Below, piece by piece: positions 7,732 to 32,213 of a stretch of DNA of 34,671 bases. The position numbers and the translations under genes are program-made. Each line of letters opens with the position of its first letter. The stretch's first letter is position 1. The DNA is from Rhodospirillaceae bacterium. GTDB taxonomy: Bacteria; Pseudomonadota; Alphaproteobacteria; Rhodospirillales; UBA2165. The notes under the pieces were generated by a model, which was not told the DNA's origin, did not search any database, and saw only the letters and a program-made list of their open reading frames with translations. The stretch covers positions 1 to 34,671 of the forward strand of contig JABIIH010000204.1 in assembly GCA_018649245.1 (NCBI GenBank). The letters run 5' to 3'.

Positions 7732-9150
7732 GTGAGAGCGGTAAGGACATGGTCGGTCAGGCATTCCCGTTTTATTGAAACGGTGTGGCAGGCGTTTTCG
7801 TTTGTCCTCGATATGCTTGCGCCTCTATTACGTCATTTGCCTCGCCGGTTCCTTGAGGCGCCGCTAAAGCCGGTCGAAAAACTCGCTAAAAGATTTATGT
7901 TCGATTGCCAAATGTGCGGCCAATGTGTGCTCAGCCTGACCGGCATCGCCTGCCCGATGAATTGTCCGAAAACGCTCCGCAATGGTCCCTGCGGTGGGGT
8001 CTTGGCTGATGGCGGTTGCGAGGTATCACCGGAGATGACCTGTGTCTGGCTGGAAGCGTGGGATGGGTCCAGGCAAATGAAAAATGGCGCGTCCATTAAT
8101 GAAATCCAGCACCCGGTTTCACATTTAACCCGGGCCCGCTCGACTTGGGCAGCGAGCCTGCAAGGTGATCATTCCCAACCGGCCTGGCCGGAGATTTCCG
8201 TCGGCAGTACAGTCAAAACCACCGATGAGGTTCCGGCGCGGGCCAGCAGTTTGCAGCGGGTCCTTAATTCAGGCGCTTTTACCGTTACCACCGAGTTTAA
8301 TGCGCCGGATACGGCTGCGGCCGAGGATATCATTGAGGCAGTGCAGCCGCTAACGGATATCTGTGATGGCATTAACGTCACCGATAATGCTGGCGCCAAT
8401 GTCCATATCTCCAGCCTGAGTACTTGCGCGTTAATGGCGCGGGAGGGTTTTGAGCCGGTTATGCAGATGACCTGCCGTGACCGCAACCGCTTGGCCATCC
8501 AATCAGATGTTTTGGGGGCGGCGACACTTGGTGTCACCAATATCACCTGCATGACGGGCGATGCCATCACCAGCGGTGATCATCCGGACGGCAAGCCTGT
8601 CTTTGATTTGGATGCCGCATCACTGCTGCAGACCATCCGGCATTTGCGCGACGAAGGTAAATTTCTAACCGGGCGCGAGCTTAAAACCCCGCCCTATATT
8701 TATATGGGCGCAACCGCCAATCCGTCGGCGAAATTTCTTGATGTTGAAATTAGCCGGGTGGCTAAAAAAGTTCGGGCCGGTGCGCAATATCTACAAACTC
8801 AATATTGTTTCGATATGATGGCTTTGAAGAATTTCATCACTCGATTTCGAGATGAGGGGCTTGATGAATGGGCGCATTTGCTGGTCGGTGTTGGTCCGTT
8901 GCGCTCGGCTAAAAGTGGCCGCTGGATGCGAGACAATATTCCCGGCGTCCACATTCCGGACGATATTATAGAACGTATTGAGCGCGCCGATGATGAGCGT
9001 GCAGAAGGGCAAAAATTTGCCGCCGAGTTTATTGAGGAATTAAAGGATATGGCCGCTGTCTCTGGTGTTCATATTATGGCGATTGGCCAGCCTTTGCGGG
9101 TTGCCCAAATTGTCGAGATGGCTGGTATTGGGCCGAAATATAGGAGTTAA
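7732..9150 (+). CDS. Methylenetetrahydrofolate reductase with fused N-terminal MetV-like Cys-rich domain
   Basis: FMFDCQMCGQCVLSLTGIACPMNCPKTLRNGPCGG matches the MTHFR C-terminal/MetV-type Cys motif; then MetF-like TIM barrel (FTVTTEFNAPD...NVTDNAGANVHISSL...CRDRNRLAIQSDVLGAATLGVTNITCMTGD...GATANPSA...AQYLQTQYCFD). ORF opens at 7678, but GTG at 7732 (VRAVRTWSVRHSR) with GGAG upstream is the likelier start. Confidence 0.87.
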   Translation: MRAVRTWSVRHSRFIETVWQAFSFVLDMLAPLLRHLPRRFLEAPLKPVEKLAKRFMFDCQMCGQCVLSLTGIACPMNCPKTLRNGPCGGVLADGGCEVSPEMTCVWLEAWDGSRQMKNGASINEIQHPVSHLTRARSTWAASLQGDHSQPAWPEISVGSTVKTTDEVPARASSLQRVLNSGAFTVTTEFNAPDTAAAEDIIEAVQPLTDICDGINVTDNAGANVHISSLSTCALMAREGFEPVMQMTCRDRNRLAIQSDVLGAATLGVTNITCMTGDAITSGDHPDGKPVFDLDAASLLQTIRHLRDEGKFLTGRELKTPPYIYMGATANPSAKFLDVEISRVAKKVRAGAQYLQTQYCFDMMALKNFITRFRDEGLDEWAHLLVGVGPLRSAKSGRWMRDNIPGVHIPDDIIERIERADDERAEGQKFAAEFIEELKDMAAVSGVHIMAIGQPLRVAQIVEMAGIGPKYRS

Positions 9151-9276
9151 TTATTATCGTCTAACAACTGGACGCCGATTAAATTAGTCCAGATACTGAA
9201 TTGGGGGGGGATTTCAGCAGGTTCATTGCTTGCCGGTCTCCCATGGAAATAATTTTTTGGCACAGGAGCCGCAATT

Positions 9277-9933
9277 ATGAGCAATGATAAACATGATAAA
9301 TTAGTCAATCTAATCGCCGATATGGAAGAGGACGAGGCACTCGCCCTCACCCAGGAACTGATTGATGAAGGTGCTGAGCCCACCTCCATTCTTGAGATTT
9401 GCCGGGCTGCTATGGATATCGTCGGCCAGCGTTTTGAAGCCAACGAATATTTCGTGCCCGAGCTTATTCTAGCCGGTGAAGTGCTCGACCAGATGTCTGC
9501 GATGGTAAAACCGCTAATCGCCGATACCACTGAAGAGGATGACAAAGTTGATAGCGGCACGGTCCTGATCGGTACTGTGCATGGTGATCTGCATGACATT
9601 GGTAAAAATATTGTCACCTTCATGCTCGACGTCAACGGCTACAACGTCATTGATCTAGGTATTGATGTTTCACCCCAGGCTTTCATCGACGCAATTAAAG
9701 AAAAATCGCCTGAAATCGTTGGTCTCAGTGGCTTTCTGACACTGGCTTTCGATTCGATGAAAGAAACCGTTGAAGCGATTGATGAAGCTGGATTGCGCGA
9801 CGTGGTGAAAATCATGATCGGCGGTGGCCAGGTCGACGAGCAAATCCTCAAATATACCGGTGCTGACTCCTTTGGCCTCAACGCTATGAGCGCCGTTAAT
9901 CAATGCAAAGAATGGATTGGGGAGGCTGCATAA
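9277..9933 (+). CDS. Methyltransferase cognate corrinoid protein (B12-binding)
   Basis: 218 aa; helical cap domain, then VHGDLHDIGKNIV (DxHxxG at 9586-9603), GLSGFLT and MIGGGQV. Confidence 0.93.
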   Translation: MSNDKHDKLVNLIADMEEDEALALTQELIDEGAEPTSILEICRAAMDIVGQRFEANEYFVPELILAGEVLDQMSAMVKPLIADTTEEDDKVDSGTVLIGTVHGDLHDIGKNIVTFMLDVNGYNVIDLGIDVSPQAFIDAIKEKSPEIVGLSGFLTLAFDSMKETVEAIDEAGLRDVVKIMIGGGQVDEQILKYTGADSFGLNAMSAVNQCKEWIGEAA

Positions 9934-11189
9934 TGGCACCTAAGGATTCCGACCGGGACCCCAAGGAACTTTATCAGGAACGCACTCAGCGCATTGCTGA
10001 TGCGGCGGCTCTAAAGGAAACGGACCGGGTACCTTATATTTACGCCACTCGTTTTTGGAACGCCAAACTTGCGGATATGACCTGCAAGGACACCATGTAT
10101 GATGTCGAAAAGAGCATATCCTCCAACCGGAAAGCGATTGAGCTTTTGCAGCCGGATGCTTTCGGGGCAGCGAATTACGCCTACGGCGGTGCCTTGGAAA
10201 AGCTTGACTATCATCCGCTCGAATGGCCGGGTGGTGGCGCTGCGGACGATGTCTGTTTTCAATATATAGATAAAGAACTCATCGTGCCGGCTGAATATGA
10301 TGAATATTTGTTCGATCCGACGGCGTTCTACTTGCAAAAATACCTGCCGCGTATTGCCACCGGTTTTGAAGGCCTCAAGCATTTTCCAAATTTCCCGACC
10401 TTGTCGGAATGGAACATCGTCTACAATCTTCGAGCCTTCGCCAACCCGGAACTTCAGGAGTCTTTTAAGACCTTGATGGAAGTCGGCGAGATGGTCGACC
10501 ATTCCATGACCAGGATGACTGAGTTCATCAAAGAGATGATGGAAGCTGGCTATCCCATGGCGATCGGTGGTTTCTGCAAAGCGCCATATGACCACATCGT
10601 TGATTTTCTGCGCGGCTCAAAGGGCGGTATGCTCGACATGTTCCGTCATAAAGACAAGCTGTTGGAGACCATCGATAAAGCACGGCTTTTGCTGAACACA
10701 AATGTCGTCGAAGGCGCGCAACGCGTTGGTTGCCCCTATGTTTTTATCCCCCTTCATTGGGGCCTCGATGGCTTTATGTCGCCGGACCAGTTCAACGAAT
10801 TTTACTGGCCGAGTTTGCGCCAAACCATCCACGATCTGATTGAGGCGGAAATGACACCGGTTATTCTGTGGGAAGGCGATTGCACCACCCGGCTCGAATT
10901 TATCGGCGACATTCCGCCGGGCAAAGCCATTTACTGGTTCGAGCGGACCGATCTGCATACCGCTAAAGACGTGTTGGGGGATATTGTCTGTCTGCGCGGC
11001 AATGTTTCGCCGTCTCTGCTGAATACCGGAACAGCGGACGAAGTCGATGCCTATTGCAAGGACCTCATTGAATATGTCGGTAAGGGCGGTGGCTTCATGC
11101 TTGATGGCGCAGCCAGCATCACCGATGAAGCGCCGATTGAAAATATCGTCGCCATGGCAGAATCAGTACATAAATACGCTAACAACTAA
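9933..11189 (+). CDS. Uroporphyrinogen decarboxylase-superfamily methyltransferase, paralog 1
   Basis: ATG at 9933 overlaps the TAA of the corrinoid gene (taATG). UroD/MtaA-like: ETDRVPYIYATRFW, GFCKAPYDHIVDFLRGSKGGMLDMFR, LRGNVSPSLLNTGTADEV, GGGFMLDGAASITDEAPIENIVAMAESV. Confidence 0.9.
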   Translation: MAPKDSDRDPKELYQERTQRIADAAALKETDRVPYIYATRFWNAKLADMTCKDTMYDVEKSISSNRKAIELLQPDAFGAANYAYGGALEKLDYHPLEWPGGGAADDVCFQYIDKELIVPAEYDEYLFDPTAFYLQKYLPRIATGFEGLKHFPNFPTLSEWNIVYNLRAFANPELQESFKTLMEVGEMVDHSMTRMTEFIKEMMEAGYPMAIGGFCKAPYDHIVDFLRGSKGGMLDMFRHKDKLLETIDKARLLLNTNVVEGAQRVGCPYVFIPLHWGLDGFMSPDQFNEFYWPSLRQTIHDLIEAEMTPVILWEGDCTTRLEFIGDIPPGKAIYWFERTDLHTAKDVLGDIVCLRGNVSPSLLNTGTADEVDAYCKDLIEYVGKGGGFMLDGAASITDEAPIENIVAMAESVHKYANN

Positions 11190-11206
11190 ATTAAGGAAGT
11201 TGCCCC

Positions 11207-12454
11207 ATGTCAGATAAATCAGGCGCCGAGCTTTATGCCGAGCGCGAACAACGCGTTCAAGATGCGATGGACTTAAAGGAAACCGACCGGGTTCCCTTGT
11301 CGATGTTTTCTCATTTTTGGCCGGCGACTTTGGCGGGTATTACATTTGAGCAAGCGATGTATGACTATGACGCTTTCAATGATGCCATGCGTCAAACACT
11401 CGAGCTTCTACAGCCGGATATGTATGCGCTGAACCAGACCTATATTTGCGTCGGGCCGACGCTTGAGTTGATGGATTTTAAACAGCTCGAATGGCCAGGC
11501 CACGGCACCGACCCCAATGTCTCCTTTCAGTTTCTCGACCGGGAATATATGAAGCGAGATGAGTATGATGCCTATTTAAACGACACGACCGACTTTTTCC
11601 TGCGCACATACATGCCGCGGGTTGCCGGCGCCTTTGAGCCTTTTGCCAAACTGCCTTATCTGCCGGCCCAGTATTATTTCAAGATGATCCGGGTGCCGAC
11701 AGCTTTTGCCGGTGATGATATGATTGAAGGACTGGAGAAAATTCTCGCGGCCGGCAAGGAAATGCGGAAGATGTTAAAAGGCGCCTTGGGCTTCGCCAAG
11801 GATATGGCCGAACAGGGTTTCGTGCAAAGTATTGGTGGCACCGCCGCTGCGCCTTTCGATAATTTTGCCGATTATCTTCGGGGTTCCAAAGGGGCCATGC
11901 TCGATTTGTTCCGCAACAAAGACAAATTGCTAGAATGTATGGACCGGGTTGCTGACAACATTATCGAAGACACCATCGCTGGTGCCCAACACAATCCAAG
12001 CCGGCAAATCTTCATTCCGCTGCATTGGGGGCTCGATAATTTCATGTCGCCTGAGCAGTTTGAGCTGTTTTTCTGGCCACCCTTAAGAAAAGTCCTGATG
12101 GGGCTGATTGAAGCCGATCTCATCCCTTGTGTGCTTTGGGAAGGTGACTGCACCACGCGGCTTGAAACCATCGCCGATATTCCGGTCGGCAAGGCGGTTT
12201 ATTGGTTTGAACAAACCGATTTGGGACTGGCCAAGTCAGTATTAGGTGACATTACCTGCCTCCGTGGCAACGTGTCATCTTCCACTTTGATCACCGGCAC
12301 ACCGGATGATGTTGATGAAGAATGCAAAAAATTGATCAAAGTTGCCGGCAAGGGCGGTGGCTTTATTCTTGATGGGGCAATTGGTCTGCCTGATGAAGCT
12401 AAGGTGGAAAACGTGGTCGCCATGGCGGAATCAGTGCGGAAATACGCAAATTAG
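11207..12454 (+). CDS. Uroporphyrinogen decarboxylase-superfamily methyltransferase, paralog 2
   Basis: 415 aa, collinear with the preceding protein: ETDRVPLSMFSHFW, NFADYLRGSKGAMLDLFRNKDKLLE, IPLHWGLDNFMSPEQFELFFWPPLRKVL, GGGFILDGAIGLPDEAKVENVVAMAESVRKYAN. Confidence 0.9.
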   Translation: MSDKSGAELYAEREQRVQDAMDLKETDRVPLSMFSHFWPATLAGITFEQAMYDYDAFNDAMRQTLELLQPDMYALNQTYICVGPTLELMDFKQLEWPGHGTDPNVSFQFLDREYMKRDEYDAYLNDTTDFFLRTYMPRVAGAFEPFAKLPYLPAQYYFKMIRVPTAFAGDDMIEGLEKILAAGKEMRKMLKGALGFAKDMAEQGFVQSIGGTAAAPFDNFADYLRGSKGAMLDLFRNKDKLLECMDRVADNIIEDTIAGAQHNPSRQIFIPLHWGLDNFMSPEQFELFFWPPLRKVLMGLIEADLIPCVLWEGDCTTRLETIADIPVGKAVYWFEQTDLGLAKSVLGDITCLRGNVSSSTLITGTPDDVDEECKKLIKVAGKGGGFILDGAIGLPDEAKVENVVAMAESVRKYAN

Positions 12455-12464
12455 GATCTGACGG

Positions 12465-13169
12465 ATGCCGGTTAAAACTGATTGGCCTGATTTTTTTTCA
12501 AGCCCGAATTTCGAAAGTTGGCAGGAGCTGAATTGCAGCCGCACGCTGCATTCCCGCTTCCAGCGCGAAGTTCAGGAAATGCATGAATATGCACTCGCTG
12601 AAAATCTGGTCCAGCCGCGTCTTGCTTTTGTGTCTATGCCAATCACAGACAAAGGGAAAGATTGGATCGGCTTGGAAAATGGTATTGAGTTATCGAATGC
12701 CTCTGAAGTTGCCGATAAATTTGCCGCTGCCGATGAGCTCATATTGGCTGTCGGCACTATCGGAGACGGGCTGGAAACAGCTGCGGCGGAAATGTTTCAA
12801 AACAAAAAAGCGATTAAAGCGCTGGCCTTGGAGGAAGTTGCAGTTGCGGCGATTTTCGAATTCACCAACGCGGTTTTCTCCGCCATCGATGAATTTGCTG
12901 TAACCCGTGAGCTTCAAGCCAGTAGTCCGATCTATCCAGGTCATGGCAGCTTCGGCATTGAGCAGCAACGTACCGTGTTTGAGCAGGCCGGTGGAGAAGA
13001 GATCGGTATGCGGGTTTTAAAAACTGATATGCTGTTTCCGGCGAAATCTATTTCCTTGGTGTTTGGTCTGGGCCAGGATTTGCCGCGTTGGGACCGCAAA
13101 AAAGATTGTGAAACCTGTAAAGCGCGGGAGAATTGCCGGTTTCGTAACTCTGAAAGTCTCGCCGCATGA
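12465..13169 (+). CDS. Protein resembling the vitamin B12-dependent methionine synthase activation domain
   Basis: 234 aa; AVGTIGDGLE...ALEEVAVAAIFEF...SPIYPGHGSFGIEQQ...TDMLFPAKSISLVFGLG...CETCKARENCRFR, the pattern of MetH-activation-like proteins found with corrinoid methyltransferases. Confidence 0.72.
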   Translation: MPVKTDWPDFFSSPNFESWQELNCSRTLHSRFQREVQEMHEYALAENLVQPRLAFVSMPITDKGKDWIGLENGIELSNASEVADKFAAADELILAVGTIGDGLETAAAEMFQNKKAIKALALEEVAVAAIFEFTNAVFSAIDEFAVTRELQASSPIYPGHGSFGIEQQRTVFEQAGGEEIGMRVLKTDMLFPAKSISLVFGLGQDLPRWDRKKDCETCKARENCRFRNSESLAA

Positions 13170-15010
13170 CCACCTTCCAAATTTCCTTTGAGCCGATGCA
13201 CGAAGTCATCGAGTGTGCGGCTGGTGAGACGATCCTCGAAGCGGCTCGGCGAGAGCGGGTTAGGATATCAAGTTCCTGTGGCGGTCATGGCACTTGTATG
13301 TCCTGTGCGGTTCAGATCACAGCAGGTGAGCTGCCAGCAGCTCATGAGGCAGATTCTCAAGTGTTTTCTGATCGTCGGCTCGGTGAGGGCTGGCGGCGGG
13401 CTTGTATCACTGAGCCCACTGGAGATTGCACCATCTCCGTGCCCGCCCGGTCAACGGCGGCGCCGGTGCGCACTCAAGTGGATGGCCTTGGTAATGACAT
13501 GGCTAATTTGGTCGATTTTGAACCGGTGGTTAAAGTTATTCATTTTGAGCTTGAGGAACCCTCGCTTGAAGATGGCCGCTCCGATGAAACGCGTTTGCGG
13601 GATGCCTTGGCAGAGGATTATCCGGGTGCTTGTGAGACCTTTGATGCAGCGCTGCTCCGCACCTTTGCCTTGGACATAAGAAAGTGGGGCTGGGCTGGCT
13701 GGCTGGCTAGCACCAAGGGTGAAGTAATTGCTGCGGGATCGCGGGAAGCCAGGGTTTTCGGTATGGCGGTTGATCTTGGCACAACTAATATGTCCGGATT
13801 CCTGGTTGATATGATGACCGGCGAAACTTTGGCTGCTGAAGGTATGGAAAATCCGCAGACCAGCTATGGTGCGGATTTAATCACCTATGCCTCTCATATC
13901 CGGCGTAATCCTGAAACGGCTAAAATATTGCAGGAACTGGCGGTCGAGGCGATTAATGATTTGGCCACTGATATGTGTGACGCCGTCGGTGCTCAGGCGA
14001 GCGACATCGTTGAAATCACCATAGCCGGCAATACCATGATGCATCATTTGCTGCTTGGCTTGCCGGTAACCCAGCTCGCCATGTCGCCTTTTATCTCGGC
14101 CTATAGCGATGCCTTTGATCTCAAGGCCCGCGATCTCAATATTAAGGTTGCCCCGGGAGGTTATGTCCATCTACTGCCGAACATTGCCGGCTTTGTCGGT
14201 GGCGATCATGTAGCCTCGTTGCTGGCCTCCAAATCTATCGATGGCAAACCGGTGATCATCATGGATATCGGCACCAATACCGAGCTGTCACTGGTTGAGG
14301 GCAATAATATCACCAGTGTTTCCTGTCCCTCAGGTCCAGCTTTTGAGGGCGGTAATATTAGCTTTGGCATGCGGGCGGCCGCCGGTGCGATAGAATCCGT
14401 GCGGCTTAAAAATAATGCTGTTCAATTGCAAACCATCGGCGATGAGACACCGGTCGGGATTTGTGGTTCCGGCGTGATGGATGTGGTTGCCCAATTACAT
14501 TTGGGCGGTGTCTGCAATGAGCGCGGGCGCTTGCAGAAAGATCACCCGAGGGTCAAGGAAATCGGCAAAAATCTGGTCTTTGTCTTGGCTGATGAAGAAG
14601 CCACAGGCGGCCAGGAAATAACCTTTTCGCAAGATGATTTGCGCGCCGTGCAACTCGCCAAGGCCGCTATTCGGGCGGCGACGGATCTGCTGCTCAAACA
14701 CACCGGCTACGCGGAGCGGGATCTTGGGCAAATTATTATTGCCGGCGCCTTCGGCAGCTATATTGATGTCGATAGTGCGCTGGCCATCGGTTTGCTACCC
14801 GATTTGCCCTATACCCGTTTTGCCCAAGTCGGTAACGCTGCCGGTGATGGCGCGCGTTTTGCCCTGCTCTCTGAAAAACAACGCGAGGCCGCTAAAGATA
14901 TCGCCGACCGTTCCAACTACATCGAGCTCGCCAGCGACAAAGCTTTTATGAAGGTTTTTGGCGGTCGAATTAATTTTGAAAAACGACGGGCGCTGAAATC
15001 AGTTGCTTAA
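13166..15010 (+). CDS. ASKHA-domain reductive activator of corrinoid proteins (RACE-type, N-terminal 2Fe-2S ferredoxin)
   Basis: 614 aa; CGGHGTCMSCAVQI...C plant-type 2Fe-2S motif; AVDLGTTNMSGFLVD, EITIAGNTMMHHLLLG, IIMDIGTNTELSL, CPSGPAFEGGNISFGMRAAAGAIE, IIIAGAFGSYID. Confidence 0.94.
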   Translation: MTTFQISFEPMHEVIECAAGETILEAARRERVRISSSCGGHGTCMSCAVQITAGELPAAHEADSQVFSDRRLGEGWRRACITEPTGDCTISVPARSTAAPVRTQVDGLGNDMANLVDFEPVVKVIHFELEEPSLEDGRSDETRLRDALAEDYPGACETFDAALLRTFALDIRKWGWAGWLASTKGEVIAAGSREARVFGMAVDLGTTNMSGFLVDMMTGETLAAEGMENPQTSYGADLITYASHIRRNPETAKILQELAVEAINDLATDMCDAVGAQASDIVEITIAGNTMMHHLLLGLPVTQLAMSPFISAYSDAFDLKARDLNIKVAPGGYVHLLPNIAGFVGGDHVASLLASKSIDGKPVIIMDIGTNTELSLVEGNNITSVSCPSGPAFEGGNISFGMRAAAGAIESVRLKNNAVQLQTIGDETPVGICGSGVMDVVAQLHLGGVCNERGRLQKDHPRVKEIGKNLVFVLADEEATGGQEITFSQDDLRAVQLAKAAIRAATDLLLKHTGYAERDLGQIIIAGAFGSYIDVDSALAIGLLPDLPYTRFAQVGNAAGDGARFALLSEKQREAAKDIADRSNYIELASDKAFMKVFGGRINFEKRRALKSVA

Positions 15011-15028
15011 GAAATAAGGACCCCATCA

Positions 15029-15910
15029 ATGGCAATACCAGGACTTTCAATCATCGGCGAGCGGATTAATCCCGGCTTCCAAAGTACCAAGGCAATGTTC
15101 GATAATTCGGATATTGGCGCCCTTCAGGAGCTTGCCGTCAAACAAGCCGATGCCGGTGCCGTATACCTCAATATCAATATCGGCACTCGCGCTTTGGATG
15201 ACCCAGAATTTATGAACGAGGTTATTGACGGTATTCAGGCGGTCGTCGATATCCCGCTATCGTTTGATTTTCCTAATGTCGCGGTGCAGGAAATTTGTCT
15301 CAAAAAATATGACCCAGCGAAGGCAAATGGCCGGCCGCCAATTGTTAACTCGATCTGCGAAACCCGTTGGGATATGCTTGATCTGCTCAAAATCCAGCCG
15401 TTTAAAATAATCCTGATGTCTTCTGAGCGGGTCGAAGATGGCGTCGGCAAACAAAATAAAACAGCTGATGAAATGTGGCAGACGACCCGGCGCATGGCCA
15501 AAATAATTCTTGACGGCGATTACGGCTTAACCACCGATGATCTCATTGTCGATACCGCTATTGGCACGCTTTCATCGGACACCGAAGGCCTAATCCGGGC
15601 ATCCTTGGAAACCGTGAGTTTGATTAATCAGGACCCGGACCTTAAAGGCATTCATATGTCTGGCGGGCTATCCAATCTATCTGTGCAATTGCCCTCCAAA
15701 GAAATCGACGGCGCGCCGATGAAACTGCAATTGGAAAATTCTTATCTTACGCTGGCTGTGCCCAACGGCTTTGATATGGTGCTGGGCACGCCGTGGCGGG
15801 CTTACGAGTTTTTAGCCGATGACAATACGGTGCTCGGGCATTTCAAGGACATCATCGCCTTGGATGGCACCGATGCACTCCGGCGTATCCGAAAAATGTA
15901 CAAAAACTGA
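15029..15910 (+). CDS. Methyltetrahydrofolate:corrinoid methyltransferase (pterin-binding/DHPS-like)
   Basis: 293 aa; IIGERINPGFQST...QADAGAVYLNINIGTR...PLSFDFPN...PIVNSICE...DDLIVDTAIGTLSSDTEG...HMSGGLSNLSVQLP. Confidence 0.9.
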   Translation: MAIPGLSIIGERINPGFQSTKAMFDNSDIGALQELAVKQADAGAVYLNINIGTRALDDPEFMNEVIDGIQAVVDIPLSFDFPNVAVQEICLKKYDPAKANGRPPIVNSICETRWDMLDLLKIQPFKIILMSSERVEDGVGKQNKTADEMWQTTRRMAKIILDGDYGLTTDDLIVDTAIGTLSSDTEGLIRASLETVSLINQDPDLKGIHMSGGLSNLSVQLPSKEIDGAPMKLQLENSYLTLAVPNGFDMVLGTPWRAYEFLADDNTVLGHFKDIIALDGTDALRRIRKMYKN

Positions 15911-15913
15911 GCC

Positions 15914-17110
15914 ATGGCGCAAAGAACTATCCAAGCCAACAGCTATTTTGATGGTACCGAATACCACGATAAAGGTCCCTATTGTGTTCTAATTGAAGAT
16001 GGCTTGATCAAAGATATCTTAAGCGGAGATTTGCCGCCGGACCTTGAACTTGACGATGATCTGGATAGGCGCGCGGCCTTCATTATGCCCGGTCTGGTCG
16101 AAGCTCATTGCCATTTATTTCTTGATGGCGGCGAGTTGGATTTTAAAAACCGCAGTGCATATCTCAAAGCCTCCGAAGATGAGATGTTGGCGGTGGCCCG
16201 GCGCAACGTCGAGGCTAGTTTAACCACCGGTATTACCTTTATCCGCGATGCCGGTGATAAGTGGGGGATCAATCATCGCATTCGTCAGGAAATGGCCGCG
16301 GCGGACAAGTTGGTTCCCGAAATACGCTCGCCAGGTCTCGGTATTCGGAAACCTAAACGCTATGGCGGCTTTATGGCCCGTGAAGTTGAGACTCGGGATG
16401 AAATCGTCGCTGCTATTAAGGATCTCCTAAAAACTGGTGATGAGCTTAAAATACTGCTCACCGGTATCATTGATTTTGAATCCGGTACGGTAAAAGGTGA
16501 ACCGCAATTTGATGTCGACGAAGCAAAACTGATCGTTGAGACGGCGCACGATCTCGGTCGTCGCACTTTTGCTCATTGCAGCGGTCTTAAAGGTCTCGAA
16601 GTTGCCGCGGCCGCTGGGGTTGATTCTGTCGAGCACGGTTTTTTTATGACCCGCGACATTTTGGAAATTTTAGCCGAAAAACAAATCGCCTGGGTGCCGA
16701 CCTTTTCGCCGGTGCATTTTCAATGGGCTCGGCCTGAAATAGCCGGTTGGAGCGAAGAGAGTATCTTCAACCTTAAAGGCATTCTCGATTCCCACAGCGA
16801 ACATATCAAAATGGCTGACGAGATGGGCGTGCCGGTGGTTGTCGGCTCGGATGCCGGCAGTCATGGCGTTGTCCATGGTGTGGCCGTGATTGATGAAATT
16901 AAATTTCTCGTCGAGGCCGGCATGTCGATGGCCAAAGCGCTCAATGCCGCGACATCGTTGCCGCGCAGTTTGTGGGGCAGCACTTCAGCCGATATCAAGC
17001 CTGGCGATCATGTTGACATCATCGGCCTATCGGAATCGCCATTTGAAAATACCGCAATGTCATGGCAGCCTAGCTGGGTTATGATGGGGAGCGAATGTAT
17101 AACTCTCTAA
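15914..17110 (+). CDS. Amidohydrolase-family metal-dependent hydrolase (imidazolonepropionase-like)
   Basis: 398 aa; IMPGLVEAHCHLFLDGG (HxH), TFAHCSG, VDSVEHGFFM, VVGSDAGSHGVVHG. Confidence 0.88.
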   Translation: MAQRTIQANSYFDGTEYHDKGPYCVLIEDGLIKDILSGDLPPDLELDDDLDRRAAFIMPGLVEAHCHLFLDGGELDFKNRSAYLKASEDEMLAVARRNVEASLTTGITFIRDAGDKWGINHRIRQEMAAADKLVPEIRSPGLGIRKPKRYGGFMAREVETRDEIVAAIKDLLKTGDELKILLTGIIDFESGTVKGEPQFDVDEAKLIVETAHDLGRRTFAHCSGLKGLEVAAAAGVDSVEHGFFMTRDILEILAEKQIAWVPTFSPVHFQWARPEIAGWSEESIFNLKGILDSHSEHIKMADEMGVPVVVGSDAGSHGVVHGVAVIDEIKFLVEAGMSMAKALNAATSLPRSLWGSTSADIKPGDHVDIIGLSESPFENTAMSWQPSWVMMGSECITL

Positions 17111-17811
17111 GTCAGGCGGAGCTTGAAAAAATGACCATTGCTTATTTTCAGACGCTAAATGTGCCGACAGAAGCTGGTCCGGATATTCGCGCGAGTTTTC
17201 GTGAGCAAGCTGTGCCAAAGCTGTTACAACACCCGGAAATTAATTGTGTCAGCGTATATGCGCCTGAACTTGTCGATGATCCTTATGTCGATGATGGCGC
17301 GCCGCCGGAATTGGTGGTGCAGTTTAATGTCGCTGATCTTGAAGCGCTCGCTACTGTGCTTGCCGACAAAAGTGTTTTAGAACAACTCGCCACCCCGGAA
17401 AATGCCACGGTAAGTTCAGAAGTTTTTGAAGTCGTTGCCTATGATATTGAAGGTGTCGCCGAGCCTGCAAAACGTACCGCGCCATTGTCTTTTAACGTCC
17501 GCTACTACGCCCCGGTCACGGATGAACAGCATTTCCGTGACTTCTATGTCAGCCACCACCCGCAAATCCTGGCCGAACTTCCAGGCATTCGAAATGTGTT
17601 TTGCTATCTGCCAGTGGCCCCGCTGGGCGCGTCACCCCATCCAATCTCTATTTGCATTTTAGGTAATGAAGTGGTGTTTGACACACTTGAGGCGCTTAAT
17701 GAATCAATGAAAACCGCAGTACGACACCGCTTGCGGGACGACTATAATGCCTTTCCGGTCCGCCCAGGCCCAAATTCCCATTACGCTATGCAGCGTCAGG
17801 ATTTTTCATAG
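17095..17811 (+). CDS. EthD-like / dimeric alpha-beta-barrel protein with two ferredoxin-fold-like halves
   Basis: 238 aa; C-terminal half VRYYAPVTDEQHFRDFYVSHHPQILAELPGIRNVFCYLPV is EthD-like; N-terminal half FREQAVPKLLQHPEINCVSVYAP...PELVVQFNVADLEALATVL has similar topology. Start overlaps the amidohydrolase end. Confidence 0.6.
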   Translation: MYNSLSQAELEKMTIAYFQTLNVPTEAGPDIRASFREQAVPKLLQHPEINCVSVYAPELVDDPYVDDGAPPELVVQFNVADLEALATVLADKSVLEQLATPENATVSSEVFEVVAYDIEGVAEPAKRTAPLSFNVRYYAPVTDEQHFRDFYVSHHPQILAELPGIRNVFCYLPVAPLGASPHPISICILGNEVVFDTLEALNESMKTAVRHRLRDDYNAFPVRPGPNSHYAMQRQDFS

Positions 17812-18397
17812 CTGGGTACTCTTTGGGTAGGGTCGATACGCCATCCATCGACATGGTAAAGAAGGTATCAATAATTTCTTCGATGGATACATCCTTGGAG
17901 GGGTCGTACCAGCGCGACATCCAATTACACATGCCGAGAATGGCAAAAGAGATCATCTTGGGATCGAGATCGGCGTTAAACTCGCCGGCTTTTTGGCCGT
18001 CAATAATGATATCCGTCCACAACTTGCCGTATTCATCCCAGGTCTCACTGAGTTCAGTGGCTTTTTCTGAATCGGCAAAGAAATGCTCCTCACGGAAAGC
18101 GACTGTCATTTCAATATAGCCCGGGGTAAACTCAGACAAATGACTTTCGAGCGCTGCTTTTAACTTTTCACGATTGGTCAGATTGGTCTGGCAGATTAGT
18201 CGCATGCTTTTAAGCAGTGTCCGGCTAGTCGGCAACAGGATTTCCAGCAAAATATCGATGCGGCTTCTGAAATAGTAATAGATCGCTTCGCGTTTGACGC
18301 CAATGGCATTGGCAATGTCTTCCACGGAGGTGTTCGAGACACCTTTACGCGCGAAAATTTCGGCGGCACGTCTGAGAATTTCGGTTCTTCGATCCAT
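17786..18397 (-). CDS. TetR/AcrR family transcriptional regulator
   Basis: 203 aa; N-terminal HTH RRTEILRRAAEIFARKGVSNTSVEDIANAIGVKREAIYYYFRSRIDIL. Confidence 0.93.
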   Translation of the reverse strand: MDRRTEILRRAAEIFARKGVSNTSVEDIANAIGVKREAIYYYFRSRIDILLEILLPTSRTLLKSMRLICQTNLTNREKLKAALESHLSEFTPGYIEMTVAFREEHFFADSEKATELSETWDEYGKLWTDIIIDGQKAGEFNADLDPKMISFAILGMCNWMSRWYDPSKDVSIEEIIDTFFTMSMDGVSTLPKEYPAMKNPDAA

Positions 18398-18483: not shown

Positions 18484-18608
18484 TTCGTTTACATATGGAG
18501 CCGGATTAGGTAGCCTATGATGACGGTCTTTAAAATTCTGGTGAATAAGTCGTAGAAATAGCGGCGCGCCGACATAAAGTAAAAGTTCAGTAGGAAGGAA
18601 ATATCTTG

Positions 18609-19067
18609 ATGGCGGATGCAGATTATATCGGCAAAGAATACCCATCCTTTAGCGTCGATGTTGAGAAAGGGCGGATTAAAATGTTCGCCGCTTCAATCGG
18701 TGAAGAAAATCCTATCTATTTTGATGAAGAAACGGCTAAGAACAACGGATATTCAGGTATTCCTATACCGCCGACTTTTGCCTTTACGTTGACTATGGAG
18801 GCCGGCCAATCTTTTAATATATTGGAGGATATGGGCATCCCTAAGACCCAGGCCATGCATGGCGAGCAGGGCTTCACCTATTATGATCACATTTACGCCG
18901 GTGACACTGTTACTGGCTCGCAGCGCATTACCGATATTTACGAGAAAAAAGGCGGGGCCTTACAGTTCATTGAAGCGGTCATTGAACTGCGTAATCAGAG
19001 CGATGTTCATGTAGCCGATTTACGCTCCGTAATAGTCGTACGCCATAATGTCGAGGAGCAAAGCTAG
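18609..19067 (+). CDS. MaoC-like / FAS1-type dehydratase domain protein
   Basis: ~152 aa; YPSFSVDVEKGRIKMFAASIGEENPIYFDEE...GYSGIPIPPTFAFTL...HGEQGFTYYDHIYAGDTVT. The track start is TTG at 18606; ATG at 18609 is likelier. Confidence 0.88.
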   Translation: MADADYIGKEYPSFSVDVEKGRIKMFAASIGEENPIYFDEETAKNNGYSGIPIPPTFAFTLTMEAGQSFNILEDMGIPKTQAMHGEQGFTYYDHIYAGDTVTGSQRITDIYEKKGGALQFIEAVIELRNQSDVHVADLRSVIVVRHNVEEQS

Positions 19068-19489
19068 TGAGTAATATTGTCGATTATGCCAATCTCAATG
19101 TTGGCGACGCAATTCCCAATATGGTTAAAGAAAACATTAGCCGGACGCAATTGGCGCTGTTTGCCGGTGCCTCGGGTGATCACAATCCGATTCACCTTGA
19201 TGACGAGGAAGCAAAATCAGGTGGCCTGCCCGGTGTTATTGTGCACGGCATGCTGACGATGGCCTTCTTGGGCCAAGTCTTAACTGGTTGGGTGCCGCAA
19301 AATCAATTGCGCGGCTGGAACGCCCGTTTTGTCTCAATGGCTTTCCCGGGTGACACGATTACCTGCAAAGGCGTGGTCGCTGAGAAAATATCTGAGAATG
19401 GCGAGAATCAAGTAAAGCTTGATATTTCGGCTGAGAACCAAAAAGGTGACAATATCTTAATCGGCACCGCTGTTGTCGCAATTACTTAA
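19067..19489 (+). CDS. MaoC-like (R)-specific enoyl-CoA hydratase/dehydratase
   Basis: 140 aa; ISRTQLALFAGASGDHNPIHLDDEEAKSGGLPGVIVHGMLTMAFLGQVL (hydratase-2 motif). Confidence 0.9.
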   Translation: MSNIVDYANLNVGDAIPNMVKENISRTQLALFAGASGDHNPIHLDDEEAKSGGLPGVIVHGMLTMAFLGQVLTGWVPQNQLRGWNARFVSMAFPGDTITCKGVVAEKISENGENQVKLDISAENQKGDNILIGTAVVAIT

Positions 19490-19506
19490 AGAACGGAACT
19501 AGCACG

Positions 19507-21618
19507 ATGAAAATTGGTATTGATGTTGGCGGCACGTTTACGGATTTCTTCCTGGTCAAGGACGGTGAAGCTCCGCTTATCCACAAAACGCTTTCGACCC
19601 CCGAAGATCCCTCAATCGCCGTCCTGCAAGGCATGAATGATCTCGCGGGTATGATGGAACCGGCGATGTCGCCTGAAGATTTCGCCAAAGAACTTGAAAC
19701 TATCGTTCACGGCACCACGGTCACGACCAATGCAACGCTGACCCGGCGGGGCGCCAAATCGGCATTGCTGACGACCAAAGGCCTCCGTGATGCGCTGGAA
19801 ATGCGCCGTGGTATTCGCGAAGAACAATATAATAACCGCTATACCAATGTTGTGCCGTTGGCTGAGCGCTATCTGCGCACCGGTATCGGTGGCCGTTTGG
19901 ACCGCAACGGCAAAGAATTAGAGCCACTCTCTAAACAGGATGTGCTGGACGCCATTGAATTATACAAAAAGGAAGGTGTTGAGGCGGTTTCGATCTGTTT
20001 TATGAACGCTTTTGCCAATCCGGAACATGAACAAGCGGCGGCGGAGATTGTTCGCAAAGAATTGCCGGATGCCTATTTGACGGTTTCAACGGAATTATTA
20101 CCGTCGATCCGATTTTATGAACGCGTTTCGACGACCGCGCTAAATACCTATGTCGGACCAATCCTGAGCCACTACCTTGGCCAGCTTAAAAACCGGCTCA
20201 AAGATGTTGGCTTTGGCGGTATTTTGCTGATTATGCAGTCCAATGGCGGCGTCATGTCGCCGGAAATTGCCGAGCGGAAACCGGCCCAAACGTTGTTGTC
20301 AGGTCCGGCGGGTGGTCCTGGTGCGGGGTTGATCTATGCTCAGGCTCACAATCAAAATAAATGCCTGACCGTTGATATGGGCGGCACCAGTTTTGAAGCC
20401 TCCATGGCGGTCGACAGTCCGATCATGGTTAATGATGGCGAAATAGATCGTCACCGCATCGCACTGCCGATGCTGGGTATTCATACCATCGGTGCCGGCG
20501 GTGGCTCAGTCGGTTGGATCGACAAAGGCGGGTTGCTGCGTATGGGGCCGGAAAGTGCCGGTGCTGATCCAGGGCCGGTCTGTTATCAAAAAGGCGGCGT
20601 CAAGCCAGCCACCACGGATGCCAATTTGGTGCTCGGCTATCTTAATCCCGGCTTTTTTGCCGGTGGTAAAATCGAGCTCAATGTTGATGCAGCGCGGGCT
20701 GCCATAGAAGAACATATTGCCAAGCCGCTGAATTTGAGTATCGAAGAGGCAGCTGCCGGGATGTACCGCATCGCCTGCAATAACATGGCGCAGGGCGTGC
20801 GCGAGATTACCATTAAACGCGGCTTTGATCCGCGTGAGTTCCCGATGATCGTCGCTGGTGGTGCTGGACCAATCCATTCCTGCCTGATCTGTAACGAGCT
20901 TGAAATTCCGTTCCAGATTGTACCGCGCGAAAGCTCGATCCTATGTGCAGTTGGCATGCTGATGGGCGATCTAAAACATGATTTTGTCAGAACATTTGTT
21001 TCGCCTCTGAAGACCGTCGATTGGGACGAGCTGCGTGGTGTCTTTGGTGAGATGTCTGCCGAAGGGGCCGAGATGCTTACCGAAGAAGGTATCGACCCGG
21101 CAAATCAGGAATTCCATCTTAAATTCGATTGCCGCTATCTCCAGCAATATCATGAAGTCTCCTTCGTCGTACCGAACGAATTCGTTGAAAAAGGCGATGC
21201 CGACGCGGTTGCCGAGGCGTTCCATAAAGAGCACAACCGTCTTTATGGTTATTCTCTTGAGGAATTGGACGCCGTCGTTGAGATTATAAACGTACGAGTT
21301 CAAGCCATCGGTCAAACTGATAAACCGGTCTTCCAGGAGATCGAGCGAGTAGACGAAGACCCCGCGGCGGCGCTTAAGGGTGAACGTTCGGTCTATCTCC
21401 CCGAAACCCAGAAATTTGCCGATGTACCGATCTATGACGGGCATAAGCTGCAATACGGCCATAAAATACCCGGACCGGCGATGATTGAAGAAGTAACGAC
21501 AGCGATATTCGTCAGCGACTCGTTCGATTGCATTGTCGATCAACTGGGCTCTTTCGTGCTTTATCGAAAAGGCCGGGAAGATCTTGTTGAGGGAACATTA
21601 AAGGGAGCAACAGCATGA
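19507..21618 (+). CDS. Hydantoinase/oxoprolinase family protein, subunit A
   Basis: 703 aa; MKIGIDVGGTFTDFFLV, VHGTTVTTNATLTRRGAKSALLTTKGLRDALEMRRG, TLLSGPAGGPGAGLIYA, VDMGGTSFEASM, GAGGGSVGWID. Confidence 0.95.
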   Translation: MKIGIDVGGTFTDFFLVKDGEAPLIHKTLSTPEDPSIAVLQGMNDLAGMMEPAMSPEDFAKELETIVHGTTVTTNATLTRRGAKSALLTTKGLRDALEMRRGIREEQYNNRYTNVVPLAERYLRTGIGGRLDRNGKELEPLSKQDVLDAIELYKKEGVEAVSICFMNAFANPEHEQAAAEIVRKELPDAYLTVSTELLPSIRFYERVSTTALNTYVGPILSHYLGQLKNRLKDVGFGGILLIMQSNGGVMSPEIAERKPAQTLLSGPAGGPGAGLIYAQAHNQNKCLTVDMGGTSFEASMAVDSPIMVNDGEIDRHRIALPMLGIHTIGAGGGSVGWIDKGGLLRMGPESAGADPGPVCYQKGGVKPATTDANLVLGYLNPGFFAGGKIELNVDAARAAIEEHIAKPLNLSIEEAAAGMYRIACNNMAQGVREITIKRGFDPREFPMIVAGGAGPIHSCLICNELEIPFQIVPRESSILCAVGMLMGDLKHDFVRTFVSPLKTVDWDELRGVFGEMSAEGAEMLTEEGIDPANQEFHLKFDCRYLQQYHEVSFVVPNEFVEKGDADAVAEAFHKEHNRLYGYSLEELDAVVEIINVRVQAIGQTDKPVFQEIERVDEDPAAALKGERSVYLPETQKFADVPIYDGHKLQYGHKIPGPAMIEEVTTAIFVSDSFDCIVDQLGSFVLYRKGREDLVEGTLKGATA

Positions 21619-23291
21619 GCAAAATAGATCCCATTTTACTTTCCGTTTACGCACGGACCTTTAAATCCATCACTGACGAAATGAGTATTTCAGTGGAGAA
21701 AACGGCGCGTTCGCCGATCCTTTGTGAAGCCAAAGACTTTGTCACCGGCCTTTATGATGGTGAAGGTAATATGTTGGAGCAGACCGAGAACCTGCCAATC
21801 TTGGCGTTTTCGCTGGCCCCGGTTTGTAAATACATCCTGGAATATTTTGGCGACGATATTCACGAAGGTGATGTCATTTTCCACAACGATGTCTTCTCGA
21901 TGGGCAATCAAAACAACGACGTTGCAGTTTATAAACCGATCTTCCACGAAGGTGAATTGGTCGCTTGGACCGCCGTTAAAGGTCATCAGGCCGATATTGG
22001 CGGCGCTGTTGCCGGCGGCTACAACCCCAATGCCACCGAAGTTTGGCAGGAAGCGCTGCGTATCCCACCGGTTAAGGTTTATGACAAAGGCGTGCTCCGT
22101 AAGGATGTCTGGGAACTGATCTTTGCCAATGTCCGGCTCGATATAGTTGAGCACGACATGCGGGCGCAATTGGGCGCAACTGTTATTGGTGAGCGCCGGT
22201 TCTTGGCACTGCTCGATAAATATGGCGTTGAAAGCTTTCAGTCGCACAAACTTGCATTGTTCGATTCGACCCGCAAAATGATGGAAGCCGAGATCGAAAA
22301 AATCCCGAACGGCACCTATTATGGTGAGGGCTATGTTTATTACGACGGCCATCATCTGGGCTCAGAGTTCACTATTCGTGTGACCATCGACGTCGAAGAC
22401 AATCACATCAAATTTGACTATTCTGAAACCGACGATCAGACTAATGGGTTTGTTAATGGCACCTATACTTCAAGTGCTTCAGCGACAATTTTGACCTTGT
22501 TGCAGATGGTCAACCCGGACATTCCCCATAATCAGGGCATGGTCGAGCCGATCGAGATCATTATCCCGGAAGGCACGCTCCTCAACGCGTCCTATCCGAA
22601 AGCGACGACTTTCGGTAATCATATTTGCCCACCAAATGCCGATGCGATTATGAAAGCGTTGGCCCCGGCCATTCCGAATAACATCACGGCGGGCTGGAAT
22701 CATTTGTTGTGCTCGCTGACGGCAGGAATGGATGATGATAAAGGTGAACGTTACGTCGATATCTTTTTCCTCGGCCAAAAAGGTGGTTCGGGCGGTATGA
22801 ATGGCACTGACGGTTATGACCATATTGGTATGATCGATGCTTCTGGCGGTGTGTTGACACAAGACTATGAAATGTTTGAACAGCAAACGCCGCATGTTTT
22901 GAACTTGCATGAATATACGATTGATTCGGCCGGTGCCGGACAATGGCGAGGTGGCATCGGCACAGAGACAATTTATACAATTGGCTCCGACGACACCCAG
23001 TTCGTGACCTTTGGTGACGGCGACTTTATTCCGGCTTTTGGTTTGTTCGAGGGTAAGGATTCAACGCTAAACTCAATTGTCCTGACTTTCCCGGACGGCA
23101 CCGAGAAAACACCGAATAATAAAGACCTCTGGACCGGTGTGCCGAAAGGTACTGTCTATCGTCAGTTTGCTGGCGGTGGCGGTGGTTATGGAAATCCTAA
23201 AAACCGCGACCGCGAAAAATTGGCAGCGGAAATTCGGGATGGCCTGATATCCGAAGATGCTGCCAAAGAAATTTATGGATTAGGAGCGTAA
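21615..23291 (+). CDS. Hydantoinase B/oxoprolinase family protein
   Basis: 558 aa; DEMSISVEKTARSPILCEAKDF, GDVIFHNDVF, VKGHQADIGGAVAGGYNPNATEVWQEALRIPPVKVYDKG; ATGA overlap with the HyuA stop. Confidence 0.95.
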   Translation: MSKIDPILLSVYARTFKSITDEMSISVEKTARSPILCEAKDFVTGLYDGEGNMLEQTENLPILAFSLAPVCKYILEYFGDDIHEGDVIFHNDVFSMGNQNNDVAVYKPIFHEGELVAWTAVKGHQADIGGAVAGGYNPNATEVWQEALRIPPVKVYDKGVLRKDVWELIFANVRLDIVEHDMRAQLGATVIGERRFLALLDKYGVESFQSHKLALFDSTRKMMEAEIEKIPNGTYYGEGYVYYDGHHLGSEFTIRVTIDVEDNHIKFDYSETDDQTNGFVNGTYTSSASATILTLLQMVNPDIPHNQGMVEPIEIIIPEGTLLNASYPKATTFGNHICPPNADAIMKALAPAIPNNITAGWNHLLCSLTAGMDDDKGERYVDIFFLGQKGGSGGMNGTDGYDHIGMIDASGGVLTQDYEMFEQQTPHVLNLHEYTIDSAGAGQWRGGIGTETIYTIGSDDTQFVTFGDGDFIPAFGLFEGKDSTLNSIVLTFPDGTEKTPNNKDLWTGVPKGTVYRQFAGGGGGYGNPKNRDREKLAAEIRDGLISEDAAKEIYGLGA

Positions 23292-23296
23292 GCTAG

Positions 23297-24430
23297 ATGG
23301 TTCTCAATCTCAACGAGGAACAAATCGCCATCCGCGATACCTTTGCCCGCTTTACCGATGAGCAAATTATTCCCAATGCGGAAGCTATTGATGAAGCACA
23401 TGAATATCCGCGCGACATCGTCAAGCAATTGGCTGATCTCGGATTTATCGGCATGCGCTATCCGGAAGAAGTTGGCGGCTCAAACGTCAATTTAGTGACT
23501 TTTTGTCTGTGTGTTGAAGAAATTGCGCGGGGCTCGATGTCGGTAGCTGGTTGCGTTTCGATGCAGTCGCTGATGGGCACCAAGTTCTTGGAAATGCTCG
23601 GCAATGATGACATCAAGGAGCGCCTGTTCAAGCCGGCGCTTGAGCTGGAAAAAATTGGCGCGATCTGTATGACCGAACCCAACGCCGGCAGTGACCTTGG
23701 TAGTCTGGCGACCTCGGCAACTAAAGTCGATGGCGGCTATGTCTTGAACGGTAATAAAATTTGGGTGACCGCTGCTCCGCTGGCCGATTTCTTTACAGTT
23801 TTTGCCCGCGTGGGTGAGGAAAAACTGCTTTCCATTTTTCTGGTCGAAAAAGATTTTGACGGCATCAGTGTCGGCAAGACGATCGAAAAAATGGGTGTTT
23901 GGGCGCTGCCAACATCTGAATTGGCGCTTGATGAGTGTTTTGTGCCGGACAGCCATTGTCTGAGCAAAGAAATCGGTGACGGTGAGGAGCATCTTCGTAA
24001 GCTACTGTCAGAAATCCGCATCATGACGGGCGCACTGGGCTTAGGTATTGCCCGGGCTGCGCTTGACGAAGCCGTAAAATATGCCGCCGAGCGCCAACAA
24101 TTTGGCAAACCGATCAATCGCTTTCAGGCAATCCAATTGAGACTTGCTGAAATGGCGACAGATTTGGAAGCGGCGACGCATCTGGTTTATCACGCTGCCC
24201 AGTTATTGGATGAAGGCAAAGAACACCGCAAGGAAGCTTCGATGGCTAAAATGTTTGCTTCAGAGGCTGCCGCCACAATTTGTGAAAAAGCGGCCCGGAT
24301 TTTTGCCTCTTACGGTTACGCCATGGAATATCCGGTACAGCGCTTTTTGCGCGATGTCCGCTTCATCTTAATCGGCGGCGGCACCAGCGACATACTCAAA
24401 CTTATTATTGCCAAGGAGTTATCGACATGA
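23297..24430 (+). CDS. Acyl-CoA dehydrogenase family protein
   Basis: 377 aa; ICMTEPNAGSDLGSLATSATKVDGGYVLNGNKIWVTAA, AAERQQFGKPINRFQAIQLRLAEMATDLEAA, RFLRDVRFILIGGGTSDILKLIIAKEL. Confidence 0.95.
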   Translation: MVLNLNEEQIAIRDTFARFTDEQIIPNAEAIDEAHEYPRDIVKQLADLGFIGMRYPEEVGGSNVNLVTFCLCVEEIARGSMSVAGCVSMQSLMGTKFLEMLGNDDIKERLFKPALELEKIGAICMTEPNAGSDLGSLATSATKVDGGYVLNGNKIWVTAAPLADFFTVFARVGEEKLLSIFLVEKDFDGISVGKTIEKMGVWALPTSELALDECFVPDSHCLSKEIGDGEEHLRKLLSEIRIMTGALGLGIARAALDEAVKYAAERQQFGKPINRFQAIQLRLAEMATDLEAATHLVYHAAQLLDEGKEHRKEASMAKMFASEAAATICEKAARIFASYGYAMEYPVQRFLRDVRFILIGGGTSDILKLIIAKELST

Positions 24431-24846
24431 GTAACGGAGACAATAGTAAAATTAAAATCCTCGTCGGCAAGCCCGGCCTTGATGGTCATGATGTCGGCGC
24501 CAAGGTTGTTGTTCGTGCCCTGATGGATGCCGGTTTTGAAGTTATTTATACCGGCCTGCGCAAAACACCGAGCGAGATTGCGCAACAGGCCTTGGACGAA
24601 GATGTTGATGTTATTGGCCTCTCCAGTCTGGCTGGTTCGCATTTATTATTTTGCCAGAAATTAAAAGGTCTGATCGATCAATACGGGCTAAAGGAAAAGC
24701 TCTGGCTGATTGGTGGCTGCGTGCCGAAAAAAGATCATGCCGAGCTTAAAAAAATCGGTCTCGACGGTATTTTCCCGAACGGCAGCAAGCTTGAAGATAT
24801 TGTTGAATTTATTGAAGCAAATGCTCAAGTGAAGGAGGTGGCGTGA
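24427..24846 (+). CDS. B12-binding small subunit of an acyl-CoA mutase
   Basis: 139 aa; KILVGKPGLDGHDVGAKVVVRALMDAGFEVIYTGLRKTPSEIAQQALDEDVDVIGLSSLAGSH...IGGCVPKKD; ATGA overlap upstream, coupled to the large subunit downstream. Confidence 0.95.
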   Translation: MSNGDNSKIKILVGKPGLDGHDVGAKVVVRALMDAGFEVIYTGLRKTPSEIAQQALDEDVDVIGLSSLAGSHLLFCQKLKGLIDQYGLKEKLWLIGGCVPKKDHAELKKIGLDGIFPNGSKLEDIVEFIEANAQVKEVA

Positions 24847-26456: not shown

Positions 26457-26491
26457 AGCCCAAAGTTAAAACGTGGCTTAAAGGAAAGTTT

Positions 26492-27809: not shown

Positions 27810-27822
27810 TCGGAGAAATCAG

Positions 27823-31334: not shown

Positions 31335-31361
31335 ATTGAGTTATCCACCAGAGGAAAGAGA

Positions 31362-32192: not shown

Positions 32193-32213
32193 CCTGGAGA
32201 TTGCCGACGTAAC

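Follow-up and report, generated by a model that had tools for sequence, protein, structure and literature searches.

A probable UroD-type hub for B12- and tetrahydrofolate-dependent demethylation in marine Alphaproteobacteria with terminal-oxidase genes

Introduction

Corrinoid methyltransferases other than MetH have long been associated with anaerobes. Corrinoid-dependent demethylation of the MttB type matters in the oxic ocean (PMC12478193). In the window (the whole stretch of 34,671 nucleotides analysed here, contig JABIIH010000204.1 of assembly GCA_018649245.1, from a Rhodospirillaceae bacterium) seven genes at positions 7732–15910 had been read, in an original prediction made from the sequence, as a complete split corrinoid/tetrahydrofolate (THF) demethylation module. 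The locus raises the question of whether these genes make up a functioning system, which known systems it resembles and on which methyl donors it may act. We consider it likely that the module is the shared hub by which marine Alphaproteobacteria with terminal-oxidase genes carry out B12/THF-dependent demethylation. Judged from its genes and their conservation, the unit is real, complete and conserved, and probably operates as a demethylation system.

Gene content of the module

All seven genes, in the order and on the single strand originally given, were recovered by Pfam and NCBIfam domain searches, profiles and fold matches (Table 1): a MetV–MetF fusion (metVF), a free corrinoid protein (CP), two UroD-superfamily proteins predicted to be substrate:corrinoid methyltransferases (MTIs; MTI_1 and MTI_2), ORF5, a reductive activase of the corrinoid protein (RACE) and a CH3-THF:corrinoid methyltransferase (MTII). 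From CP through MTII the intergenic spacing is −31 to +18 bp. The reading of the block as a complete unit of methyl transfer, methyl oxidation and cobalamin repair is supported by these matches together with the intact motifs of the seven genes.

The metVF open reading frame (472–490 aa) contains PF12225 and PF02219 in a single frame, the MetV part (DUF5981/MetV, E 3e-24) preceding a complete MTHFR domain (E 2e-34), and has eight conserved Cys residues; a separate canonical MetF is encoded beside metVF in the window genome (G000) and in G592, a more distant genome described below. For metVF the GTG at 7732 is, as first proposed, the most likely start, because the G006 orthologue starts at the equivalent Met, whereas MTI_1, previously placed from 9903, probably begins at 9933 because of a TAATG overlap with the corrinoid gene. 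CP is a two-domain protein (B12-binding, E 1.6e-20; B12-binding_2, E 3.7e-16) with DxHxxG at residue 104, and RACE has all of the RACo N, linker, middle and C domains (E down to 7e-78) and an intact plant-type [2Fe-2S] motif (CGGHGTCMSC). MTII matches Pterin_bind (E 1.8e-9) and the MeTr model (E 8e-29) and keeps the GLSN motif; its closest solved relatives are AcsE and a DHPS-annotated methyltransferase (4o0q), the sister entries of which (4o1e and 4o1f) serve as models of CdmA (PMC13222342).

Although Pfam (even at E<1) and NCBIfam gave no match for ORF5, a profile built from eight homologues retrieved the MetH activation domain TM0269 (1j6r, E 9e-6), and Foldseek matched the AlphaFold model (pLDDT 84.5) to 1j6r (E 1e-10, TM 0.78) and to further MetH entries, in line with the earlier description of this protein as MetH-activation-like. 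The predicted structure of ORF5 is that of the standalone MetH activation proteins (TM0269 type). Its three C-terminal Cys (CxxCx5C) are kept in 8/8 homologues and therefore suggest a metal or Fe–S site.

Conservation and copy number

We sampled 24 genomes of the family, 385 others drawn from the class and 399 drawn from the phylum. MTI was found in eight of the family genomes and RACE in the identical eight, the two agreeing in 24/24; MTII was found in seven of these eight (agreement with MTI and RACE in 23/24), and was not seen in G004 because the contig ends inside RACE. A chance match of two such genome sets would have a probability of ~1e-6 if genomes were independent, which they are not. 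Within the 385 class-drawn genomes no match reached E 1e-20, and the 399 phylum-drawn genomes yielded one, G592, a complete genome from another alphaproteobacterial family. Here metVF, CP, MTI, ORF5, RACE, MTII and an amidohydrolase gene follow one another in this order, complete and with a single MTI, the enzymes being 43–60% identical to those of the window and ORF5 28%. Considering that the block is syntenic in G592 and that MTI and RACE co-occur throughout the family sample, we argue against a chance grouping; the co-occurrence in related genomes expected by the original prediction was found.

The unit does not end at 15910, as had been proposed, since the amidohydrolase gene, which begins 3 bp after MTII, is conserved with it. 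It lies directly downstream of MTII in G000, G002, G006, G011, G017 and G020 and in the equivalent place in G592, and occurs in no family genome that lacks the hub, G010 having the hub without it. Between the window and G592 the amidohydrolase is 54% identical, compared with 56% for MTII, 44% for MTI, 43% for RACE and 28% for ORF5. This gene belongs to the unit as its eighth member. The residue pattern of prolidase-type amidohydrolases (HxH, Lys, two His and Asp) is intact in the protein, and its nearest structures are ochratoxin-degrading and prolidase-like; no other part of the module is as poorly understood in its role.

RACE and MTII are each single-copy in every module genome (the MTII of G004 excepted, as above), and one module CP is present in seven of the eight family genomes and in G592, G020 having a second CP beside an MTI. 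The MTIs number 2–6 per family module genome (some of them fragments at contig ends), and these copy numbers are most simply read as a single CP/MTII/RACE hub serving several substrate-specific MTIs. The UroD duplication to which the original prediction drew attention does consist of two genes, 50% identical in product, but we prefer to see in them two members of a larger set of substrate modules on one hub. With its single MTI, G592 may reflect the ancestral state of the unit, the duplication seen in the window then being an elaboration at family level.

Genes for COX1/haem-copper oxidase are present in 9/9 module genomes, which therefore probably respire oxygen, and close relatives are represented among public contigs by metagenome-assembled genomes (MAGs) from seawater, with TARA-type run numbers or the label SI053 (probably Saanich Inlet). 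The MttB family (PF06253) had no match in the nine module genomes.

The UroD-type methyltransferases

MTI_1 and MTI_2 match URO-D (PF01208) with E 8.9e-21 and 8.2e-22. Among 25 aligned MTIs, 67 of ~415 positions are invariant, and the tree separates MTI_1, MTI_2, a third hub-linked type (G010/G017/G020) and loners, an MTI_1-like gene being present in every hub locus of the family. Two barrel blocks, HWGLDxFMS and WEGDC..RLE, are conserved in both window MTIs and possibly contain catalytic residues. MTI_2-clade genes lie near molybdenum (Mo) hydroxylase genes in 5/6 loci (L043, L044, L048 and the window among them), the hydroxylases being of different subfamilies (4-hydroxybenzoyl-CoA-reductase-like and CoxL-like).

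The predicted fold is that of UroD, and the best Foldseek matches are UroD decarboxylases, from which it might be argued that the two proteins are decarboxylases, or other non-methyltransferases, that have clustered by chance. We regard this as extremely improbable, considering the obligate link of MTI with CP, RACE and MTII and the fact that the nearest solved protein by sequence is a corrinoid methyltransferase; the true HemE is encoded elsewhere in the genome (400 bits) and is 15–17% identical to the window MTIs, and identity of the MTIs with HemE was rejected.

That nearest solved protein is CdmB (E 7e-33 with a single sequence, 1e-52 with a profile), to which the window MTI is 26.9% identical over residues 174–426, the C-terminal barrel; the CdmB structure (9rui) was absent from the Foldseek matches of the MTI model. 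The MTIs fall far short of the MtaA/CmuA model TIGR01463 (25–26 bits, cut-off 235), of NF040654 (26–35 bits, cut-off 400) and of NF004889 (36–51 bits, cut-off 244), and the HxCG zinc motif is not found in the window MTIs, WEGDC occupying the position of the MtaA-type motif. The hidden Markov model scores and the absent HxCG led us to reject the module as a Cmu relative. The proposal that these UroD proteins lie outside any characterised clade held for the clades compared, the CmuA, MtaA and MtbA models being far below cut-off and CdmB at ~27%; the MTIs may form a clade of their own apart from the characterised proteins compared, with MtvB, OdmB, VdmB and MtoB likened to them by described layout and not by sequence. 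A tree of the MTIs with CdmB did not resolve their position, as the long branches meet. A plasmid search for UroD relatives returned one 25% match (Sporomusa), whose listed neighbours included no hub genes. A further member of the order, G024, encodes an unrelated UroD pair with HSCG alongside a corrinoid protein (L054:8122-11714), a different, MtaA/CmuA-like system.

The kinship with CdmB, a haloalkane:corrinoid methyltransferase that likewise lacks HxCG at the zinc site, invites the suggestion that MTI_1 and MTI_2 act on CH3Cl, CH3Br or CH3I as a Cmu- or Cdm-like methyl halide dehalogenase, and CH3Cl degraders that lack cmu genes are known among marine and soil Alphaproteobacteria (PMC4197683; PMC9080209), so that the module would offer a cmu-independent aerobic route. 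We think this quite unlikely, however: the identity is 27% over the barrel, Cdm-like candidates are spread across the UroD superfamily (PMC13222342), and the number of paralogues, the amidohydrolase and the lactamase and Mo-hydroxylase neighbours (below) are ill-suited to a one-carbon halide.

Comparison with known demethylation systems

The cmu pathway (CmuA, CmuB, MetF2), originally taken as the closest comparison, does share with the module its setting in aerobic Alphaproteobacteria and the passage of a methyl group by a UroD-type enzyme to corrinoid, then to THF, then to oxidation, but CmuA fuses the UroD and corrinoid domains that are separate genes here, and neither the model scores given above nor the layout, to which mtg is nearer, upholds it as closest. 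Nor is the separation of UroD protein and CP unusual, as had been thought; it is normal in the O-demethylases MtvB, OdmB, VdmB and MtoB and in CdmBCA (PMC13222342). The module is of this kind, having a UroD-type MTI, a separate CP, an MTII and an ATP-dependent activase. The O-demethylases, likened by layout only, combine the same four components (PMC13222342) but belong to anaerobic acetogens and archaea, and CdmBCA of Acetobacterium dehalogenans (PDB 9rui) shares the UroD-superfamily MTI, separate CP and MTII but comes from a strict anaerobe, and the fused metVF, ORF5 and the amidohydrolase are not in cdmBCA as described.

The nearest layout that we found is that of the proteobacterial mtg glycine-betaine cluster. 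A Paracoccus aminovorans plasmid encodes an MttB-type MTI, CP, DUF1638, MetV, MetF, MTII and ASKHA/RACE, and Azoarcus KH32C has an equivalent mtg-type hub adjoining betaine transporters; this type demethylates glycine betaine in Ruegeria pomeroyi, and as many as seven MttB-type genes occur with it (PMC12478193). Systems of the mtg type (Ruegeria, Paracoccus, Sinorhizobium, Azoarcus) share with the module their occurrence in oxygen-using proteobacteria, a separate CP, one MTII, dedicated MetV and MetF, RACE and several MTI paralogues on one CP, and window metVF shares ~50% identity with the MetV and MetF that mtg clusters encode separately. They differ in that their MTIs belong to the MttB family, whereas those of the module belong to PF01208 in genomes without MttB; in having DUF1638 where the module has the MetH-activation-fold ORF5 (DUF1638 was not searched for elsewhere in the window genome); in keeping MetV and MetF as separate genes; and in that no conserved amidohydrolase was seen. 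Given the similar logic and related reductase but the different MTI family and helper protein, the module looks like a parallel assembly to mtg. Its gene combination was not found in the literature searched, yet precedents exist in split UroD systems and in the mtg hub, which make it less singular than first thought.

Proposed function

We suggest a model in which gene identities, the folds of MTI and ORF5, motifs, synteny, co-occurrence and copy numbers are observed, and in which reactions, directions, hub-sharing and oxygen use are inferred. One of several UroD-type MTIs would bind its methylated substrate and pass the methyl group to Co(I) of the single CP, and MTII would transfer it from CH3-Co(III) to THF. 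The MetVF fusion, as an extra reductase beside the housekeeping MetF, would run oxidatively to give methylene-THF for one-carbon oxidation or assimilation; we argue for this direction because a dedicated MetVF beside a canonical MetF parallels Ruegeria metF2. RACE, driven by ATP and using its 2Fe-2S domain, would restore CP that had accidentally gone to Co(II), probably with the aid of ORF5. MTI_1 and MTI_2 would serve as two substrate modules, with MTIs elsewhere in the genome plugging into the same hub. The amidohydrolase would most likely process what the main substrate becomes on demethylation; action on a folate intermediate is a less likely role. In acetogens, for comparison, MetVF reportedly functions with ferredoxin in vitro (PMC8760232).

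Several points weigh against the model. The mtg hub proteins are distant from those of the module (CP 35%, RACE 32–37%, MTII ~27%), and since the MTIs are only ~27% identical to CdmB their methyltransferase activity is assigned by homology and context. Use of the hub CP by loner MTIs is deduced from copy number alone, and G020 has its second CP beside one MTI. G010, G017 and G020 carry the hub, but metVF was not found there; many of the genomes sampled are incomplete MAGs, and gaps in these may explain part of the absence. MetVF could in principle run reductively.

It is formally conceivable that the module supplies methionine or CH3-THF anabolically, as a split methionine synthase, given that roseobacter MtgC and MtgD have dual roles (PMC12478193) and that a MetE-C-like protein (core methionine synthase type, PF01717) adjoins a loner MTI in G006 (L037:11812-12996), where it might take the methyl group directly from the corrinoid protein. 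This appears very improbable, as the module is without a homocysteine-binding subunit, a MetH-length ORF with a CP-like domain and a canonical MetF are each present in most module genomes, and the second reductase and RACE fit catabolic flux.

Neighbouring genes and substrate

Downstream of the eight genes lie an EthD-like gene, kept in G006 only, a TetR gene and a long operon (Table 1). The operon encodes two MaoC hydratases, a CapA/CapB-like ATP-dependent lactamase, an acyl-CoA dehydrogenase, the small and large subunits of a 2-hydroxyisobutyryl-CoA-mutase-like (HcmA-like) B12 enzyme, an XDH-type Mo hydroxylase of three subunits, a class III CoA-transferase and a short-chain dehydrogenase/reductase, and ends in the start of a fused indolepyruvate:ferredoxin oxidoreductase. 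A 51% homologue of the last lies directly upstream of the G592 module (L100:848-4435); the window and G592 otherwise share little around the module. The operon block is conserved beside the hub in G006 only and is absent beside it in G002, and as a part of the module the MaoC/CapAB/mutase operon was rejected on account of that conservation. A promoter/terminator scan gave no excess relative to shuffled sequence, and an Rfam search gave no match.

Table 1. Features of the window, with positions in the 34,671-nucleotide stretch
Feature	Positions	Strand	Basis or remark
metVF: MetV (DUF5981) fused to MetF-type methylene-THF reductase	7732..9150	+	Pfam; open frame from 7678
Free corrinoid protein (CP), B12-binding + B12-binding_2, DxHxxG motif	9277..9933	+	Pfam, motif
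MTI_1: UroD-superfamily substrate:corrinoid methyltransferase (predicted)	9933..11189	+	URO-D match; open frame from 9903
MTI_2: second UroD-superfamily methyltransferase (predicted)	11207..12454	+	URO-D match; own clade
ORF5: MetH-activation-fold protein (predicted fold), 234 aa, C-terminal CxxCx5C	12465..13169	+	Profile, predicted fold
RACE: ATP-dependent reductive activase of corrinoid protein, N-terminal [2Fe-2S] domain	13166..15010	+	RACo domains
MTII: CH3-THF:corrinoid methyltransferase	15029..15910	+	Pterin_bind
Amidohydrolase, prolidase/ochratoxinase type, eighth conserved gene	15914..17110	+	Domain search, conserved position
EthD-like protein	17095..17811	+	Sub-threshold Pfam match; kept in G006 only
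TetR gene	17786..18397	-	
Operon (MaoC/CapAB/mutase/Mo hydroxylase)	18606..34671		
Fused indolepyruvate:ferredoxin oxidoreductase (start)	32214..34671		Tail of operon

By its gene content the operon hints at a heterocycle. MTI_2, and perhaps MTI_1, might accordingly N-demethylate homarine, an N-methyl lactam or a similar ring, which the operon (with its lactamase, XDH-type hydroxylase, CoA-transferase and mutase-like enzyme) and the amidohydrolase would open and degrade; in keeping with this, Mo hydroxylase genes lie close to MTI_2-clade genes in G000, in G006, in G011 and at two loci of G020. We nonetheless hold it to be unlikely, since the operon adjoins the hub in the window and G006 only and not in G002, which is of the same genus, the Mo hydroxylases belong to different subfamilies, and we know of no UroD-type MTI that acts on N-methyl groups. 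As a clue to substrate, the neighbours of loner MTIs (a branched-chain-type ABC transporter; a metallo-beta-lactamase with UPF0261; a Mo hydroxylase; an amine oxidase with electron transfer flavoprotein) gave nothing firm, as they differ between loci.

In known systems N-methyl quaternary amines are the domain of the MttB family, and for this reason, which is an argument and not a test, they have become less likely within the panel of candidate substrates first put forward. Methoxyaromatics or haloalkanes are the substrates of those UroD-type MTIs whose function is known (PMC13222342), and by analogy we tentatively suggest small O-methylated or halogenated methyl compounds as the substrate class, at somewhat less than an even chance. 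A bolder and more doubtful proposal is that a UroD-based hub-and-spoke system has evolved in parallel to mtg, the MTIs of which open methyl donors new to corrinoid methyltransferases (e.g. algal O-methyl or heterocyclic N-methyl groups), with the amidohydrolase as a new dedicated partner.

Biological implications

The module indicates that, beside the MttB type, a second, UroD-type version of corrinoid demethylation exists in marine bacteria that have terminal-oxidase genes and are without MttB. One possibility is cmu-independent use of methyl halides, an open question in PMC4197683 and PMC9080209. If the proposed function is true, a defined gene set, consisting of one hub and ~25 aligned MTIs, would be at hand for direct substrate assignment, and methylated organic compounds in the sea would have a B12-dependent sink that has so far gone unrecognised.

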